Source: Bryobacteraceae bacterium (GTDB taxonomy: Bacteria; Acidobacteriota; Terriglobia; Bryobacterales; Bryobacteraceae). From it: a stretch of 62,633 nt of DNA. The position numbers and the translations under genes are program-made. How positions within the stretch are numbered: position 1 is the first letter of the stretch; each line of letters starts with the position of its first letter. The stretch is taken from NCBI GenBank assembly GCA_025055455.1, contig JANWXD010000022.1:1-62633 (forward strand). The letters run 5' to 3'. The notes beneath the pieces were generated by a model that made no database searches, was not told where the DNA came from, and saw only the letters and a program-made list of their open reading frames with translations. Positions 4,700 to 47,638 of this stretch are shown piece after piece.

Positions 4700-6091
4700 T
4701 CAGGACAAAGCTTGAGCCTTCTCCTGCACCAGCCGCCACACCTCCCGCAGGTCGGCTTCGGTCGTGCCCAGGTTGCCGACGGCGATGCGCAACACGAACC
4801 GCCCATGCAGCACCGTGTGGGACAGGAACGCCTGGCCCGTGGCGTTCACCTGCTCGAGAAGGCGCCGGTTGGCCTCATCCGGCCCCTTGAGCCGGAAACA
4901 CACCACGGAAAACGGGACCGGCGCCACGCGTTCGAATCGTTCGTCCGCGTCGATCCACCGCGCTAGCTCCTGCGCCATCGCGATGTGGGAGCGCAGCACG
5001 CGTTCGATGCCCCGCCGGCCGAAATGGCGCATCACGAACCACAATTTCAACGCCCGGAATCTCCGACCGAGCGGCAGGCCGTAGTCCATGAAATGGATCG
5101 CCCGGGCGTCTTCGGCGGTGCGCAAGTATTCGGGCACCAGCGCAAAGGCCTCGCGCAAAACCTCGGGCCGCCGCGTGTAGAAGGCGCTCAGGTCCAAGGG
5201 CGTCAGCAGCCACTTGTGCGGATTGACCACGATGGAGTCGGCGCGCTCGGCTCCGTCGAGGATGTGGCGGTATTCGGGCAGGATCGCCGCCGCTCCGGCA
5301 TAAGCCGCGTCCACGTGGAGCCAAAGACCGTGGCGCTGCGCCACGTCGACGATGTCTCTCACCGGGTCCACGCTCGTGGTCGAGGTCGTGCCCACCGTGG
5401 CCACGACGCAAAACGGGCGCCGGCCGTTGCGGCGATCGGCCGCCACCGCCTCTTCCAGCAGGTCCGGCCGCATGCGGAATTCTGCGTCGACCGCAATCTT
5501 GCGCACGTTTCGCAACCCGATCCCCAGCGCGATGGCGGCCTTGTCCACCGAGGAGTGGGCGTGTTCGGAACAGTACAGCGTCAGTGCTGCGCCGCCGCCC
5601 TCGGAGCGAACCTCGGGCGCTGCCTGCTGCCGCGCCGCCGCGATGGCGTGGAAGGTGCTGACCGAGGCGGTGTCGAAGATGATGCCGAAAAAATCCTCCG
5701 GCAGGTGGAGCCAGCGGCGCAGCCAGCCCAACGTCACTTGCTCGAGCTCCGTGCCGGCCGGAGAGGTCTGCCACAGCATCCCGTTGGCATTGATCGCCGC
5801 CGCCAGCAGTTCGCCCAGAACGCCCGCCCCGGACGCGGAGATCGCAAAGTAGGCCAGGAAACGCGGATGGTTCCAGTGCGTCACGGCCGGCAGGATCGAG
5901 CGGTGAAAGTCCGCGAGAATCTCCTGGAGCGGTTCCCCCTCCTCGGGGGCGCAGGAGGGAAGCGCCCGCAACAGATCGCCGGGTTCCATGGGCGGAACCA
6001 CCGGGAACCGACGCGGATCTTCGAGATATGCGGCGATCCAGTCCACGGCTTGCCGCGCCGCTTGCCGGAATTCGACAGCGTCGCGGTTCAC
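4700..6091 (-). CDS. PLP-dependent aromatic-L-amino-acid decarboxylase family protein
   Basis: Group II decarboxylase resembling plant/animal aromatic amino acid decarboxylase; it would remove the carboxyl group from an amino acid such as tryptophan, tyrosine or phenylalanine to give the amine. The 463-residue product has the family N-terminus ([19 protein letters not shown]), the stacking histidine region [10 protein letters not shown] (about 177-186), the Asp loop HVDAAYAG (259-266) and the Schiff-base lysine in NPHKWL (Lys293). It starts at a GTG whose GTGA overlaps the stop of the upstream esterase gene, so it is translationally coupled to it. Substrate is not determinable by eye. A second, unrelated decarboxylase subtype lies at 42285-44420. 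Confidence 0.92.
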
Positions 6092-11215: not shown

Positions 11216-12538
11216 GTGGCCGCAGCGGAGTTGGCGCGCCGCCTCGGGCTGCTGGATGCCACGGCGCTCGTGGTGGGCGTGGTGGTAGGTGCCGGCATCT
11301 TCCTGACTCCGGGCGTCGTGGCGGGACATTTGGCGGCCCCGGGCTGGATCCTCGCCGTCTGGGCTCTCACCGGCCTTTTCACCCTAGCCGGTGCGCTCGC
11401 CTTCGCCGAGCTCGGCGCCATGCTGCCCGCAACGGGCGGCCAGTACGTCTTCTTGCGGGAAGCTTACGGGCCGCTGGTGGCGTTCCTGTGCGGCTGGGCG
11501 TTCCTGGTCGTGATCTGGACAGGAACGCTGGCGGCGCTGGCGGTGGCCTTCGCCGAACACTTGGTTCACGTTGTCCCGATCAGCCCCGACGGCCGCACGC
11601 TCGTGACGGTGGCCGCGCTGGTGATGTTCACGGCCTTGAACTACTACGGGGTGCGTCCCGGCGCCTGGACCCAAAATCTCCTCACCACGGGGAAGCTGGC
11701 ATTAATCGTCGCCCTCGCCATGGCCGCGTGGTGGGGGCTCCCGGCCGCAGACGGCCCACAAACGGAGGCACCGTGGTCCTGGCGCGGGTTGATGCTGGCT
11801 TTGGTGGCCTGTTCGTGGACGTACGACGGCTGGCAAGCGCTCAGCTTTGTCTCTGGCGAAATCCGCCGCCCGTCGCGGGCGATCCCGCGCGCCTTGCTGC
11901 TGGGTCTCGGGCTGGTTACGGCCCTCTACCTCGCGGTGAACGCCGCTTTCTTGCCGGCGCTGCAACGCCCCTCGGGGAACGGCGCCGAGCGAGCCATACT
12001 TTCCGCCGCTGCTTCGTTTTTAGGACCCGGCGCAGGCGCGTTTGTCAGCGCGGCCATCTTGATTTCCATCGCCGGGGCGCTGAACGGGGGTATCCTGGCC
12101 TGCCCGCGCATCTATTTCGCCCAAGCCCGTGACGGCTTGTTCCTTCGCCGCTTCGGTGAGATTCATCCCCGCTTCCAAACGCCCTCTTTCTCCCTGCTGT
12201 TCCAAGGGGTCTGGGCAGGGGTGCTGGCCGTGAGTGGCACCTTCGAAACTCTGCTCACTTACACCATGTTCGGCAACTGGATCTTTACCGGCCTGGCCGT
12301 CGGCGCCGTCATGGCGTTACGGCGAAAACGGCCTGACCTCGATCGGCCATACCGCACCTGGGGCTACCCTGTAACGCCGCTCATCTACTGCGCGCTGTCC
12401 CTCGGGCTGGTCGCCGGCACGATCGCGGCTCAACCGAAACCATCCCTTGCCGGCGCAGCTCTGATTCTGTCCGGCGTGCCCGTATATTTCCTGTGGCGGC
12501 GCCGGCCTCACGGACCCTCAGCGGAGCGCCGTGCGTAG
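11216..12538 (+). CDS. APC-superfamily amino acid permease
   Basis: Inner-membrane amino acid transporter of 440 residues with about 12 hydrophobic segments. The start of helix 1 reads DATALVVGVVVGAGIFLTPG, containing the GAGIF unwound substrate-binding segment of the APC/LAT family, followed by ALAFAELGAMLPATGGQYVF, the classical TM2-TM3 signature. The end RRKRPDLDRPYRTWGYPVTP is the conserved loop before the last helices. The GTG at 11216 is preferred over a TTG at 11198 because a -10 element (11202-11207) lies between them. Serine/threonine or cationic amino acids are possible substrates; specificity cannot be told. Its TAG stop is part of the trmFO -10 element. Confidence 0.93.
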   Translation: MAAAELARRLGLLDATALVVGVVVGAGIFLTPGVVAGHLAAPGWILAVWALTGLFTLAGALAFAELGAMLPATGGQYVFLREAYGPLVAFLCGWAFLVVIWTGTLAALAVAFAEHLVHVVPISPDGRTLVTVAALVMFTALNYYGVRPGAWTQNLLTTGKLALIVALAMAAWWGLPAADGPQTEAPWSWRGLMLALVACSWTYDGWQALSFVSGEIRRPSRAIPRALLLGLGLVTALYLAVNAAFLPALQRPSGNGAERAILSAAASFLGPGAGAFVSAAILISIAGALNGGILACPRIYFAQARDGLFLRRFGEIHPRFQTPSFSLLFQGVWAGVLAVSGTFETLLTYTMFGNWIFTGLAVGAVMALRRKRPDLDRPYRTWGYPVTPLIYCALSLGLVAGTIAAQPKPSLAGAALILSGVPVYFLWRRRPHGPSAERRA

Positions 12539-42284: not shown

Positions 42285-44420
42285 TCAGTTCGCGGTCAGC
42301 TCCCGAGCCGTGGACTCCGCGATCCGGGCGAGGGATTCGACGAATTCCGCCACCAGGTCCTGTTTGTGGCCGGTTTCCGCCGCCAGCACGATGTAGGGGT
42401 TCATGACGGTGGCGCGCAGCACGAAGACGCCGTGCTGCGGGTAGTCGGCTGGATCCACTCCAGCTCGTTCGAGCAAGTCGGCCACGGAGTGGCAGGAATA
42501 GCGGGGGAGGCGAAAATGCGTGCGGGAGATAAAGAACGGCTGCGCGTAGCTGTACTCGCGCTGGCCGAGCTCCACTTCGATCGTGAAGTGCTTGTAGACG
42601 GTTTCCCCCAGCTGATTCATGCGGGCCAGCGAGCGGTTGCCCTTGATCTGGATGACGAAGCACACGATGTTGGTATCGGGCGGCGGGAGGGTGACAGGCA
42701 CGAACTGGAAAGCGGTCTGCTCGCGGTTGGCGCGCGCGGCTTGCTCCCAGTGGATCAGGCGTTCGAACAGCTCCCGCGCCGCCAGCAAAGAAGCGCGCAT
42801 GATCTCGCCGTAGCCGGCTCGGTTGGGCGGAATCATGCGATGCGACAGCCAGCAGGAGGCCGCAGCCGCTCCCGGCTTGGAGCCCTCCAGGATGAACGGT
42901 CCCACGTTGACCGGGGGAGCGTAGGCGTGCGGCGGCAGATCGCCGGGCTTTGCCGCGGTGATGTAGGGCGCCTCTTGGGCCAGGAAGAGCCGCACCCGGT
43001 CGTTGCGGAAGGCGATCACGCCGCAAGGGTACGGCACGTAGCCCATCTTGTGGGGATCCACAGCGATCGACTCGGCGCGCGGAAACGCCTGGAAGGCCTC
43101 GCACACCTCTTTGTCGCCCCAGTGGAGCCGGAGGGTGCGGGAATAGGCGCGGCGCACGAGTTGCAGTTTGCGGGCGGTGAACTCGCTGATGGCCGCGAGT
43201 TGCTCGTCCGGAGTTTCCGCAGGCGCCCCTTCCGGAGCAACGAACAGGGAACGCAGGTAGCCGGCCCAGGCGGCGTCCACGTGGAGCCAAAAGCTGGTTT
43301 GGGCGTCGCGCTCGAGGCGGCTTCGGAACTCCTCGATCCGATGCAGCGGGTCGACCGCGCCCTCTTCGGTGGTGCCGGCGATGGCGATGACCGCCAGCGG
43401 GAAGCGCCCCTGTCGGAGGGCGTTGCGGACCTTCTCCTCCAGATCCCGTACGTCCATGCGGAAGGAGCGATCCACGTCCACCAGCACGACGTGGTCCCGA
43501 CCGAAGCCGAGCACGTCGGCCGCCTTGAGAATGCTGTAGTGAACGGCGCCGGAGACGAACAGCACGGGCGGTGCGACGCGGAAGCACGAGAGGACGCCGT
43601 CGAAGGCCACACCCAGCCCGGTTTCGCGAAGCAGCGCCCACGCCCGGCGGGGAGCCTCTTCGTCCGCAAGGTCGAAGTAGCGGCGCACGGCCTCCACGAA
43701 ACGAGGCAACAAGAAAACGGCCTCGTTGGGCTTGATGGCTAGGCACTGGTGGTCGTCCAGCTCCCGCAGCGGCCGGGGGACCCGCGTCTCGTCCCCAGGC
43801 AGCTTGACGCCGAGAGGAAGACCGTACTGTTCCACGACGCGTTTCACCGCGAGCGGAAAGTAGCGGACATTGCGCGCCACCCAGAGCGCTTCCAGGTTGG
43901 CGATCGTGCCCCCGCTGGTAATGTGGGCCCAGCCAAACTCCTCGCGCAGGCGGCGATGGTGAGCGTCGGGCGGCGGAGGCGGTCGATAGCCGAGCATCTT
44001 CAGAATGTCGGAGGCGACTTCGAGCTCCCACTCGACCGTGACGGGGGCGGCCTCGGGCGTGACGTTATTGGGGTTGTACAGCATCCCGGCAAAGTAGCCC
44101 AGCACGGAGGGAATGGTCTGATCGGACAGCATGTGGGCGATGTAACGCGGGCTGTAGAAGGGGAAATGGCGGCGCAGGCGGGCGAGCATCTCGCTGATCT
44201 GCTGGAGCAGCGCGTCGGTCCAGTCCAGGAACTCGCGGCGCATCTGTTGGGTGATGATGATTTCATCGGAGGGGAAATAGTTCCGCCGCCAGTAAAAGTA
44301 GTCCCGCAGGATGTGGAGCACCATGTCCTCGACCAAGCCGGCATTCTCCGCCTTCGGACCCAAGAACCAAGCGCCGAGCTGCTTCGTCTTTTCGCGGGCC
44401 GTGGGCTGGTCTTCGGCCAT
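42285..44420 (-). CDS. Group II PLP decarboxylase of the bacterial tyrosine decarboxylase type
   Basis: Removes CO2 from tyrosine (and often phenylalanine or DOPA) to give tyramine-type amines. The 711-residue product closely follows Enterococcus/Lactobacillus TyrDC: FLGPKAENAGLVEDMVLHIL and WRRNYFPSDE at the start, GWAHITSGGTIANLEALWVARN, AGTTEEGAVDPLHRIEEFR, HVDAAWAGY (380-388), the Schiff-base lysine in VDPHKMGYVPYP (Lys458), ILEGSKPGAAAASCWLSHRM and FVLRATVMNPY near the end. It is about 90 residues longer than the lactic acid bacterial enzymes. There is no linked tyrosine/tyramine antiporter. It lies 14 bases after the UPF0173 hydrolase. Confidence 0.88.
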   Translation of the reverse strand: MAEDQPTAREKTKQLGAWFLGPKAENAGLVEDMVLHILRDYFYWRRNYFPSDEIIITQQMRREFLDWTDALLQQISEMLARLRRHFPFYSPRYIAHMLSDQTIPSVLGYFAGMLYNPNNVTPEAAPVTVEWELEVASDILKMLGYRPPPPPDAHHRRLREEFGWAHITSGGTIANLEALWVARNVRYFPLAVKRVVEQYGLPLGVKLPGDETRVPRPLRELDDHQCLAIKPNEAVFLLPRFVEAVRRYFDLADEEAPRRAWALLRETGLGVAFDGVLSCFRVAPPVLFVSGAVHYSILKAADVLGFGRDHVVLVDVDRSFRMDVRDLEEKVRNALRQGRFPLAVIAIAGTTEEGAVDPLHRIEEFRSRLERDAQTSFWLHVDAAWAGYLRSLFVAPEGAPAETPDEQLAAISEFTARKLQLVRRAYSRTLRLHWGDKEVCEAFQAFPRAESIAVDPHKMGYVPYPCGVIAFRNDRVRLFLAQEAPYITAAKPGDLPPHAYAPPVNVGPFILEGSKPGAAAASCWLSHRMIPPNRAGYGEIMRASLLAARELFERLIHWEQAARANREQTAFQFVPVTLPPPDTNIVCFVIQIKGNRSLARMNQLGETVYKHFTIEVELGQREYSYAQPFFISRTHFRLPRYSCHSVADLLERAGVDPADYPQHGVFVLRATVMNPYIVLAAETGHKQDLVAEFVESLARIAESTARELTAN

Positions 44421-44434
44421 GCCGCTTGGGGCCT

Positions 44435-45133
44435 TTACCAAGTGACCGTTTTGCCGGGTTGGAGGGGCCAGACTTCGACGTCCGGCAGCTCCTTGAGTTG
44501 TTCGGCAAGCTGTTCGGGGCGGCCCGTCAGAGGAGGGAACGTGCCGAAATGCATGGGTATGACCTTCTTGGGACGAAGCAAGCGGCAGGCCAGCGCCGCT
44601 TCGCGCGGACTCATGGTGTAGAGGTCGCCGATCGGCAGGAAGGCGAGCTCGGGCGAGTACAACTCGCGAATCCACTGCATGTCCCCGAAGACGTTGGTGT
44701 CGCCCGCAAAGTAGATGCGGCGCCTGTCGGGCAGGGTGAGCACGTAGCCGCATGGCTCGCCGCCGTACAGGATCCGCCCCTCATCCAGGATGCCGCAGCT
44801 ATGCACGGCGTCCGTCATGGTGACCGTGACGGGGCCGACCTGCTGGGAGCCGCCTTTGTTCATCGGCAGGGTGTTCTGCACGCCTTTCGATTCCAGCCAG
44901 TGGCAGGTCTCGTAAATCGCCACCACCTTGGGCGAAAATTCCCGGGCCAGTCGCACCGCGTCGTGGATATGGTCGAAGTGGCCGTGGGTGATGAGGATGG
45001 CGTCAATGCGAGCGAACCGATGGTCCGGCGGGTAGGAGGGGTTCCCCTCCGTCCACGGATCCAACACAAAGACCTCCCCGCCGGCGAGACGCAGCTCGAA
45101 GGTGCCGTGTCCCAACCAGGTGATTTCGAGCAT
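44435..45133 (-). CDS. UPF0173-type metal-dependent hydrolase (metallo-beta-lactamase fold)
   Basis: 232-residue protein with the metallo-beta-lactamase fold: MLEITWLGHGTFELRLAGG, the zinc motif THGHFDHIHDAV (HxHxDH), later YFAGDTNVFGDM and PKKVIPMHFGTFP with further ligand His. This is UPF0173 (YtkL-like) of unknown substrate. GGGAGG at the right distance precedes the ATG, and a TATGAT -10 lies just upstream. It precedes the tyrosine decarboxylase by 14 bases and may be co-transcribed with it. Confidence 0.93.
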   Translation of the reverse strand: MLEITWLGHGTFELRLAGGEVFVLDPWTEGNPSYPPDHRFARIDAILITHGHFDHIHDAVRLAREFSPKVVAIYETCHWLESKGVQNTLPMNKGGSQQVGPVTVTMTDAVHSCGILDEGRILYGGEPCGYVLTLPDRRRIYFAGDTNVFGDMQWIRELYSPELAFLPIGDLYTMSPREAALACRLLRPKKVIPMHFGTFPPLTGRPEQLAEQLKELPDVEVWPLQPGKTVTW

Positions 45134-45173: not shown

Positions 45174-45620
45174 TCAGGCGCTTGCGGCGTTGTGTCGGCG
45201 CGCCGGCCCCGGTGCGTGCCGGTCCACCGATTTCTTGGCACGACGCAGGCGCAGCAATCGGTTGACGGCGCGGATCAAGCGCGCGATCTCGTTGCCGTCC
45301 TTGGGCACGATCGCGTCCGCTCCCGTGTCTTGTTCGGTTCTGCCGAGGGCTTCCAGCGCATCGAGTAGCAGGACGATGCCCACTGCCGGGGCCACTTGCC
45401 GCAAGCAGGCCAAGTCCGCCCCCACCCCGCTGTGGTTGACCACCACGATCTCGTAGGCACCGGAGGCCAAAGCCGCCCGGGCTTCCGCCACGTCGGCTGT
45501 GGCCGATACGACATGGCCTTGCGTTTCCAGGATGGCTTTGCGCGCGGCCAGTCCGCCGGGGTGCTCGTCTAACACGAAGATTTTCGCCGGAACGCTCTCC
45601 CGCCAACGCCTGGTCTGCAT
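45174..45620 (-). CDS. Receiver-domain-like protein lacking the phosphoacceptor Asp
   Basis: 148 residues, a lone CheY-like domain with a basic C-terminal tail. The acidic pair at the end of beta-1 is kept (AKIFVLDEH, Asp18-Glu19) and so is the lysine (IVPKDG, Lys107), but the phosphorylation Asp at the end of beta-3 is replaced by Asn62 (EIVVVNHSG). The spacing 19 to 62 matches CheY 13 to 57 closely. It is therefore a pseudo-receiver, perhaps signalling by protein binding. An extended -10 (TGCTAATTT) lies about 17 bases before the ATG with no Shine-Dalgarno. No histidine kinase is adjacent. Confidence 0.8.
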   Translation of the reverse strand: MQTRRWRESVPAKIFVLDEHPGGLAARKAILETQGHVVSATADVAEARAALASGAYEIVVVNHSGVGADLACLRQVAPAVGIVLLLDALEALGRTEQDTGADAIVPKDGNEIARLIRAVNRLLRLRRAKKSVDRHAPGPARRHNAASA

Positions 45621-45731: not shown

Positions 45732-46844
45732 TTATTCGACTTCGCGTGGGGCGGTATAGCCGGATTTCGCAATGATCGTGTATTTGATGGGTTTCCCCTT
45801 TTCGTCCACGATGCGCAAGGGCTGGTTGGTGGCGGGATCTATGAGTTCTACTTTGATCCTGCGAAACTTCCCATCCCGGGCCTGATTGGTGGGGTGGTAC
45901 GTGATGAAGTACTGATTGCGGAGGGCTTCCGAAATGGCGCGGAAAATGCCCGGGAATTCTCCATAAAACCTGGGGAAAAATGCCTGTCCGCCCGTCTCTT
46001 TTGCAAACGTGCGGAGCTGATTATCGGCTTGCAGGAAGTCCAGCCGTTCGATCGGTCCCAGGTACCCGCGGGCGTCGTACCATTCCCGGAGCGCCTGCAT
46101 GAGACCGATGGCATAGATGGGGACGCCGGCGTTCTGCAGGATGCGGCGGGTCTTGTCGAAGGTGAGTTTGCTGAAGGTGTCGATGCCCGACGAGATGAGC
46201 ACGATGGCTTTGCGGCCTTCGATCTGGGACATGCGGTCCGCGGTGTCGGCAATGGCGTCGAAGAGGTTGGCTTCCGAGTAGGCGGCGATGCGCAGCCGGG
46301 ACATCGCCTCATAGGCTTTGCGCTTGTCGGTGGAAAAGTCCGAGAGAATTTCCGGGCGGATATCGTAGGCCACCACGGCCACGTAGTCTTCCGGTTTGAG
46401 AGTCTCGAGAAAGCCGTACGCAGCCGTCAGCGTCTGATACCAGGTCTCGCTCCAGTAGTACTGGAAGAGGTTGCTGAACTCGATGACCAGGCACACGGTC
46501 ATCGGCGCTTCGCCCACCTCGAAGGTGGCGATCTGTTGGGGGACGTTGTCTTCGAGGATGCGGAAGCGATCTTTCGTGAGGTTCGGGATGAAGCGGCCCT
46601 GATTGGTGAGCACGGACACTTCCAGGCTCACGGTGAAGACGTCGGCGCGAAACGTCGGCAGCCCCACCGGCAGATCCGGCTTGTCCTTTTTCTCGAACTT
46701 GGACGGAAGTTTCGCCGGCTCGGCTTCCGCTTCCGTTTTGCGCGGCCGGGCCACCGTCTCGGAACGCTGCTGTCGGGGTCCCTCCTGAGCGACCAACAAG
46801 GCCGCCAAGACGCCTGTCAGCGTGAGACTCCAAGGTCGCTTCAT
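45732..46844 (-). CDS. Secreted VWFA-related protein of acidobacterial type (TIGR03436-like)
   Basis: 370 residues: signal (KRPWSLTLTGVLAALLVAQ), an acidic/basic linker, then FTVSLEVSVLTNQGRFIPNLTKDRFRILEDNVPQQIATFEV and a von Willebrand A domain. The usual metal motif DxSxS at its start reads IEFSNLF, so MIDAS metal binding looks degenerate; LISSGIDTFS near the second site is present. This family is strongly expanded in Acidobacteria, which is the best single taxonomic hint in the window. Function unknown, probably extracellular adhesion or protein binding. Extended -10 and GAGGGGG leader precede it. Confidence 0.88.
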   Translation of the reverse strand: MKRPWSLTLTGVLAALLVAQEGPRQQRSETVARPRKTEAEAEPAKLPSKFEKKDKPDLPVGLPTFRADVFTVSLEVSVLTNQGRFIPNLTKDRFRILEDNVPQQIATFEVGEAPMTVCLVIEFSNLFQYYWSETWYQTLTAAYGFLETLKPEDYVAVVAYDIRPEILSDFSTDKRKAYEAMSRLRIAAYSEANLFDAIADTADRMSQIEGRKAIVLISSGIDTFSKLTFDKTRRILQNAGVPIYAIGLMQALREWYDARGYLGPIERLDFLQADNQLRTFAKETGGQAFFPRFYGEFPGIFRAISEALRNQYFITYHPTNQARDGKFRRIKVELIDPATNQPLRIVDEKGKPIKYTIIAKSGYTAPREVE

Positions 46845-46888: not shown

Positions 46889-47638
46889 TCAATGCATTTG
46901 GCGGCGCCGCGATTCCTGCTCCCGGAGGTAAACCTCGAATTTGCGCCGCGCGCGGCGAATCTTCCAAGCTTGGTAGTGCCGGTTCAAGGCGCCAACGAGA
47001 TCGAAGCGAACCCGCAGCCGCCTTCGGCGCAAGGAAACGTAGCCGAAGATCATGCCGCCCAAGTGCGCCACGTGGCTAACGCCGCTGCCGCTGGCCCCGA
47101 AAGAACTCATGAACGCAATCGCGCCAATGATCATGACGAAGTACTTGGCTTTGATCGGGAACAAGAAACTGAACAGGACAATGCGGTCCGGGTAGAGCAG
47201 CCCGAAAGCCAGCAGTATGCCGTAAACCGCTCCGGAGGAGCCGATGGTGGGGAACCCCGGCCCGTGGAACAACGCGTCCGCCGCCACCACACACAGACCC
47301 GCGCCCACCCCGCACAGGAAGTAGTACTTGAGGAAAAAGGGCGTGCCCCAGTCGCGTTCCAGATCCGTGCCGAACATCCACAGGGCCAGCATGTTGAAAA
47401 GAATGTGCCAGAAGTCGCCGTGCAGAAACAGATAGGTGAAGGGCTGCCAGAAGCTGAGCAACGGTTCCTGCCAGACGGCCCGCGGCCACAGCATGAAATC
47501 GCGGAAGAATGCTGCCCCGCCAAACACCCCGGCGAAATAGCGGACCACGAAAACGGCGGTGTTCACGATGAGCAACCACTTGACGCCGGGAGGGAGTTCG
47601 GGCGTGTAGGCGTACACAGTGGAGCGCTGGTAGCGCAT
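46889..47638 (-). CDS. Rhomboid-family intramembrane serine protease
   Basis: 249 residues with six membrane spans. Signature elements: FLHGDFWHILFNMLALWMFG (the loop-1 region), the nucleophile in TIGSSGAVYGILLAF and the catalytic His in SHVAHLGGMIFGYVS. It has a basic C-terminal tail. Cleaves membrane protein helices; substrates are not known. Start at 47638; an ATG at 47659 lies only three bases after a TATTCT -10, so translation from it would need a start upstream of the transcript. Confidence 0.93.
   Translation of the reverse strand: MRYQRSTVYAYTPELPPGVKWLLIVNTAVFVVRYFAGVFGGAAFFRDFMLWPRAVWQEPLLSFWQPFTYLFLHGDFWHILFNMLALWMFGTDLERDWGTPFFLKYYFLCGVGAGLCVVAADALFHGPGFPTIGSSGAVYGILLAFGLLYPDRIVLFSFLFPIKAKYFVMIIGAIAFMSSFGASGSGVSHVAHLGGMIFGYVSLRRRRLRVRFDLVGALNRHYQAWKIRRARRKFEVYLREQESRRRQMH

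Follow-up and report, generated by a model that had tools for sequence, protein, structure and literature searches.

The window, i.e., the whole stretch of 62,633 nucleotides analysed here, derives from a genome with a completeness of 98.75%. On its minus strand an intact frame runs from 44420 down to 42285, which starts with ATG and comprises 711 codons without an internal stop. The encoded protein contains the PF00282 domain (99.7 bits, cut-off 27) as well as K458 as the PLP lysine, which places it among the group-II PLP-dependent decarboxylases. Furthermore, the C-terminal domain of tyrosine decarboxylases (TyrDC), PF21391, is present above its cut-off (57.3 bits). The features of the locus are as follows.

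42285–44420, minus strand: 711-residue group-II PLP-dependent decarboxylase, TyrDC/ncAAAD-like (open reading frame, PF00282, PF21391)
42963–42965, minus strand: Y486, which aligns with Tyr471 in the catalytic loop of PcncAAAD; invariant across the 15 sequences of its clade
43047–43049, minus strand: K458, predicted PLP-binding lysine in DPHKMGYVPY, equivalent to K392 of the Lactobacillus brevis enzyme LbTDC (alignment with TyrDCs of lactic acid bacteria, LAB); likewise invariant in 15 of 15
43551–43832, minus strand: residues 197–290, a stretch exceeding that of the LAB-type enzyme 7cwx by about 40 residues (alignment ends)
43950–43982, minus strand: insert PPPPPDAHHRR, residues 147–157, typical of the clade and variable in length (alignments)
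44435–45133, minus strand: metallo-beta-lactamase-fold hydrolase (PF12706), assigned to UPF0173 in the preliminary description
45174–45620, minus strand: degenerate receiver
45732–46844, minus strand: VWA-domain protein (PF00092/PF13519)
46889–47638, minus strand, with the open frame continuing to 47863: rhomboid-family protein (PF01694)
4700–6091, minus strand: second group-II decarboxylase of 463 residues (PF00282, 348 bits)

All motifs that had been quoted for the 711-residue product were located in its translation, namely FLGPKAEN (residues 19–26), TTEEGAVDP (350–358), DPHKMGYVPY (455–464) and LEGSKPGAAAAS (511–522). In comparison to 14 relatives, the divergence amounts to 0.14–0.25 at the second and 0.46–0.57 at the third codon position. 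Since the differences sit mostly at third positions, the gene appears to encode a protein under selection, as judged from per-codon-position differences. The gene has a GC content of 65.9% and a GC3 of 84.8%. Considered with regard to a recent transfer, both values look native to the window.

The resemblance to TyrDC over the whole length, noted before, is confirmed: plasmid-borne LAB TyrDCs align over 93–99% of the query at 31–33% identity, and the architecture of PF00282 followed by PF21391 is common to both. The best solved relatives are the bacterial TyrDC structures 7cwx (E 7e-86), 5hsi (E 5e-85) and 7cwz, followed by the fungal ncAAAD 6ebn (E 5e-75), and the remaining group-II enzymes reach E 8e-29 and weaker. 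Nevertheless, the window protein scores 350.9 bits against the TyrDC model TIGR03811 and stays below the cut-off of 905.3, whereas the positive controls from Enterococcus faecalis and Tetragenococcus score 1278.3 and 1211.5 bits. L080, a LAB-like protein from another acidobacterium, obtains 755.6 bits. Since the best E-value within the clade of the window protein is its own, all 15 members lie below this cut-off. The models of PanP and diaminobutyrate decarboxylase also match, at 123 and 99 bits, and cover the shared core.

The window protein is about 90 residues longer than the LAB enzymes of the TIGR03811 type (L. brevis 5hsi/5hsj and the 7cwx series). Extra residues had been described at about 145–160, and a gap of 15 columns in the 7cwx row bears this out. 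The second surplus, placed near 390–430, is present between residues 392 and 447; it amounts to only about 12 residues, however, with 56 residues versus 44 in three LAB-type enzymes. The largest surplus had gone unmentioned and lies between residues 197 and 290, where the alignment with 7cwx counts 94 residues versus 54. Within the same clade, L070, L071 and L073 have open frames of 849–876 residues and carry a much longer insert of about 100–130 extra residues in the 395–440 region. An AlphaFold model computed from three rows (the window protein, L003 and L004) had a mean pLDDT of 39 and was discarded.

The active-site columns were placed via the E. faecalis row, which has the same numbering as L. 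brevis in that stretch. Here, 15 of the 24 tabulated positions equal those of L. brevis TyrDC, in its numbering H98, M99, S101, H241, A295, G296, T298, E299, H391, K392, Y395, V396, P397, Y398 and M588. Thus K392, H241, G296, Y398 and M588 all have equivalents, and H96, M97, H294, G349, E352, H457, K458, Y461, P463, Y464 and M673 are the kept residues in the numbering of the window protein. L. brevis TyrDC has the same DPHKMGYVPY loop without any substitution. According to excerpts of the LbTDC study, changing several of the residues kept here strongly cuts activity (PMC4904194). The nine altered positions are N100>L, E102>D, T103>Q, K240>V, V294>I, S297>T, Y331>W, M505>I and S586>T. For LbTDC, the same excerpts report almost no activity with alanine at 100, 103 or 331 and more than 10% remaining activity with tyrosine for S586T (PMC4904194). 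The residue at 586 is T671 in the window protein, and positions 100, 103 and 331 are occupied by L98, Q101 and W385, so that the substrate preference of LbTDC is not transferable.

Some of these changes are shared with the fungal enzyme PcncAAAD. By eye, the alignment places S-V-D-Q at LbTDC positions 100–103 of 6ebn, W at 331 and V at 586, and thus D100, Q101 and W385 of the window protein (positions 102, 103 and 331) are the same residues as in the fungus. A catalytic-loop tyrosine is common to both, and the catalytic domain of PcncAAAD has 717 residues, compared to the 711 of the window protein. The N-terminal stretch of the window protein scores higher with PcncAAAD than with 7cwx (128.7 versus 97.2 bits), whereas the rest and the overall score are lower (256 versus 292 bits for 7cwx). 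In contrast to PcncAAAD, the window protein ends at residue 711 and lacks the C-terminal domain 718–1013 with its calcium sites. From the excerpts available, PcncAAAD depends on this domain for activity, accepts substrates such as Phe, Tyr, Trp and kynurenine, and has Tyr471 as its catalytic-loop tyrosine (PMC13062060).

The phylogeny of TyrDC-type enzymes likewise speaks against an Enterococcus-type assignment. The main tree comprised 32 rows after removal of P0002, which had formed a very long outgroup branch in a first tree, of L088 and L095, and of eight redundant rows; the fragments L069, L072, L085 and L004 were excluded from all trees. Here, the 15 rows of the window protein's clade are united with a support of 100/100. 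The LAB-type clade of Tetragenococcus, Staphylococcus, Enterococcus, Photobacterium and the acidobacterial L080 is supported at 100/100 as well, excludes the window protein and is not the sister of its clade. Forcing the two clades together costs 8.96 log units, which is borderline (p-AU 0.047). Next to the window clade stand fungal and alphaproteobacterial enzymes (89/87). In a further tree without the fungal pieces this join is not drawn, and a wider split, which now includes the L079 group, obtains 52/84. Since its clade is not sister to the LAB-type clade and the fungal join is weak, we regard it as a deep lineage of its own. The window protein thus appears, from sequence comparison, to represent a subfamily centred on the Acidobacteriota, nested among the long group-II decarboxylases of the TyrDC/ncAAAD assemblage. 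It is a subfamily of an enzyme kind already known, and a distant cousin of the gut-bacterial TyrDC, not that enzyme itself. With its TIGR03811 score, its own clade and the changes in the active site, the label "Enterococcus-type TyrDC" is too narrow.

The decarboxylase is not a one-off, as the order contributes matches at E <= 1e-20 from 17 of its 249 other genomes (18 of 250 with the window's own), all of which carry the family code f1. In the set of relatives, 3 of 41 genomes match, the window genome included, and a draw across the phylum yielded 19 of 396 (18 of 395 others), the matched segments being 33–56% identical. Matches in G328 and G624 cover only about 110 residues within frames of 469 and 507 residues, and these proteins are probably ordinary decarboxylases. 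One of the named relatives is a protein of a Bryobacteraceae MAG (L003, 60% identity). Since L003 and L064 have the same protein sequence and L064 belongs to G086, a genome coded f1, this code corresponds to Bryobacteraceae in the naming of the L003 record; it is also the code of the window's own family, in agreement with the acidobacterial host proposed earlier. The other is a fragment (L004, 56% identity) of about 200 residues, located at the end of a contig in a MAG labelled Bacteroidales (RUG14617). SadA, a different decarboxylase, is shorter than TyrDC. Its homologues have been reported in phyla including Acidobacteria by a 2025 review (excerpts of PMC12607914).

Between the stop codon of the hydrolase gene and the ATG of the decarboxylase lie 14 bases, and the two genes may therefore be cotranscribed. 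The row of rhomboid, VWA, receiver, UPF0173 and decarboxylase genes was seen only in the window and in L055 among the loci compared. The window receiver has no Response_reg match at E <= 0.01 and its L055 homologue has one, so that the term pseudo-receiver was a fair one. It had further been argued that the UPF0173 and pseudo-receiver neighbours imply another job for the decarboxylase. This context was rejected as evidence of function: because UPF0173 occurs in 54 of 61 genomes of the family, that of the window included, and adjoins the decarboxylase in 2 of 30 loci (the window included; contig ends break at least 5 of the 30), the local context says little on function. Seven genomes of the 61-genome sample carry the decarboxylase; UPF0173 adjoins it in two (G000, G226) and lies on a separate contig in five (G010, G017, G043, G086, G129). 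A third adjacency, L058 of G179, comes from outside this sample, and L131 of G072 shows a receiver-VWA-UPF0173 group with the decarboxylase absent from the flanks available.

The decarboxylase may serve amine synthesis for a secondary metabolite, as suggested earlier; no conserved partner of it was seen among 40 annotated neighbour proteins at the window and 17 other loci, with neighbour genes called by a home-made codon-usage heuristic. At the sister loci, the neighbours encode, among others, sulfatases (three loci), a GFO/IDH oxidoreductase, an MFS transporter, a carboxylesterase, a carboxyltransferase, a D-serine dehydratase-like protein, a xylose-isomerase-like protein and a sigma factor. 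In L070 and L071, two genomes of one genus, the gene immediately upstream encodes a GNAT acetyltransferase, which would suit acetylation of an amine and is absent at the window locus. Directly upstream of the L073 decarboxylase a redoxin-family gene is found. For the second decarboxylase of the window (6091–4700), membership in group II holds, whereas the description as AADC-type is unproven, since its best curated model, diaminobutyrate decarboxylase, gives 185 bits against a cut-off of 900.

LAB TDCs have about 620 residues and are encoded in an operon tyrS-tdc-tyrP-nhaC (excerpts of PMC12607914). In the annotated tdc copies of Staphylococcus epidermidis and on E. faecalis plasmids, tyrP and nhaC adjoin the decarboxylase gene. 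For the neighbours scanned, the earlier statement that tyrP is missing beside the window decarboxylase was borne out, and among these neighbours and the PF13520 permeases scanned a tdc-tyrP(-nhaC) operon is not present. Eight permeases of the genome exceed the PF13520 cut-off, one of them in the window at 11243–12433, and a ninth match lies below it. The TyrP model was scanned against the matched stretches of these PF13520 proteins, not whole genes, and no TyrP equivalog was found among the eight: six score 26–53 bits (cut-off 630), and two give no match at E <= 1e-5.

We favour, as the probable explanation, a stand-alone intact PLP decarboxylase of its own subfamily, which would act most likely on aromatic L-amino acids and probably produce an amine rather than serve acid resistance. 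As the PLP lysine, the histidine of the pocket and the tyrosine of the catalytic loop are retained, an active decarboxylase, likeliest on aromatic amino acids, is the best reading. Here, the substrate would be Tyr, Phe, Trp or a related non-proteinogenic aromatic L-amino acid, which would form the external aldimine; K458 would hold PLP, H294 would stack on the ring, Y486 would act as the catalytic-loop tyrosine, and an arylalkylamine and CO2 would be released. An amine product is suggested by the missing tdc-tyrP-nhaC operon together with the lack of a TyrP-like permease among the PF13520 proteins. A true TyrDC, which together with an unlinked permease exchanging tyrosine and tyramine confers acid resistance or proton-motive force, would fit the full-length family membership, the eight PF13520 permeases including the one in the window, and the acid soil in which many acidobacteria live. 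The low TyrP scores of the PF13520 permeases, the lack of adjoining tyrP and nhaC genes, and the clade and active site differing from the LAB enzymes make this quite improbable.

A non-aromatic substrate, i.e., an acidic, sulfinic, diamino or unusual amino acid, is unlikely as well, though less so. In its favour stand W385, the residues altered at LbTDC 100, 103 and 505, and the matches of the PanP and diaminobutyrate decarboxylase models in the shared core. However, these two models stay far below the 351 bits of the TyrDC model, the fungal aromatic enzyme has W at position 331 as well, and the PLP loop is that of L. brevis TyrDC. Aldehyde synthases arise within the group-II decarboxylase fold, and a 4-hydroxyphenylacetaldehyde synthase (6eeq) is among the weaker structure matches. 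A role as arylacetaldehyde synthase or as inactive regulator is nevertheless highly improbable, as Y486 and K458 are invariant throughout the clade, and the invariant Y486 favours decarboxylation over aldehyde synthesis. Going further than the favoured amine-producing decarboxylase, the clade might constitute an enzyme class apart, whose own substrate could be, for example, tryptophan, kynurenine or an aromatic amino acid outside the proteinogenic set, yielding an amine signal or metabolite new to these bacteria. T613 of the lid loop is invariant in the clade, and by eye an acidic residue near E617 occurs in many rows; the loop might thus retain one half of calcium site A of the fungal enzyme and depend on a separate partner. 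We consider this extension rather unlikely.

Among the matches listed for the literature on decarboxylases of Acidobacteria, Bryobacter and Solibacter and on the family accessions, titles and abstract openings contained no study of this subfamily. A homology search would readily label the window protein as TyrDC, and it would then be included in surveys of tyramine or levodopa metabolism; the data argue for measuring its substrate first. If it is active on aromatic amino acids, a poorly cultured phylum would make trace amines with a lineage apart from the gut-bacterial and mushroom decarboxylases.

Other acidobacterial TyrDC-like proteins (G317, G279, G292) share phylum and superfamily with the window protein, yet cluster with the enzymes of LAB and Photobacterium. 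Unlike the window protein, they carry N, T, Y and M at positions 100, 103, 331 and 505 of LbTDC. The L080 gene is followed by one for an S9 prolyl-oligopeptidase, and clustered homologues follow in L081, L082 and L093, the last being an alphaproteobacterial plasmid on which the homologue is annotated as S9 peptidase; this hints at peptide use. In the related acidobacterial proteins L078 and L083 (family f35), the C-terminal 160 or so residues of the TyrDC-like protein form an extension that looks receiver-like by eye and has no Pfam match at E <= 0.1. Finally, unannotated contigs named as Listeria or Enterococcus phages (H31–H36) encode TyrDC-like proteins and are possibly bacterial DNA under phage labels.
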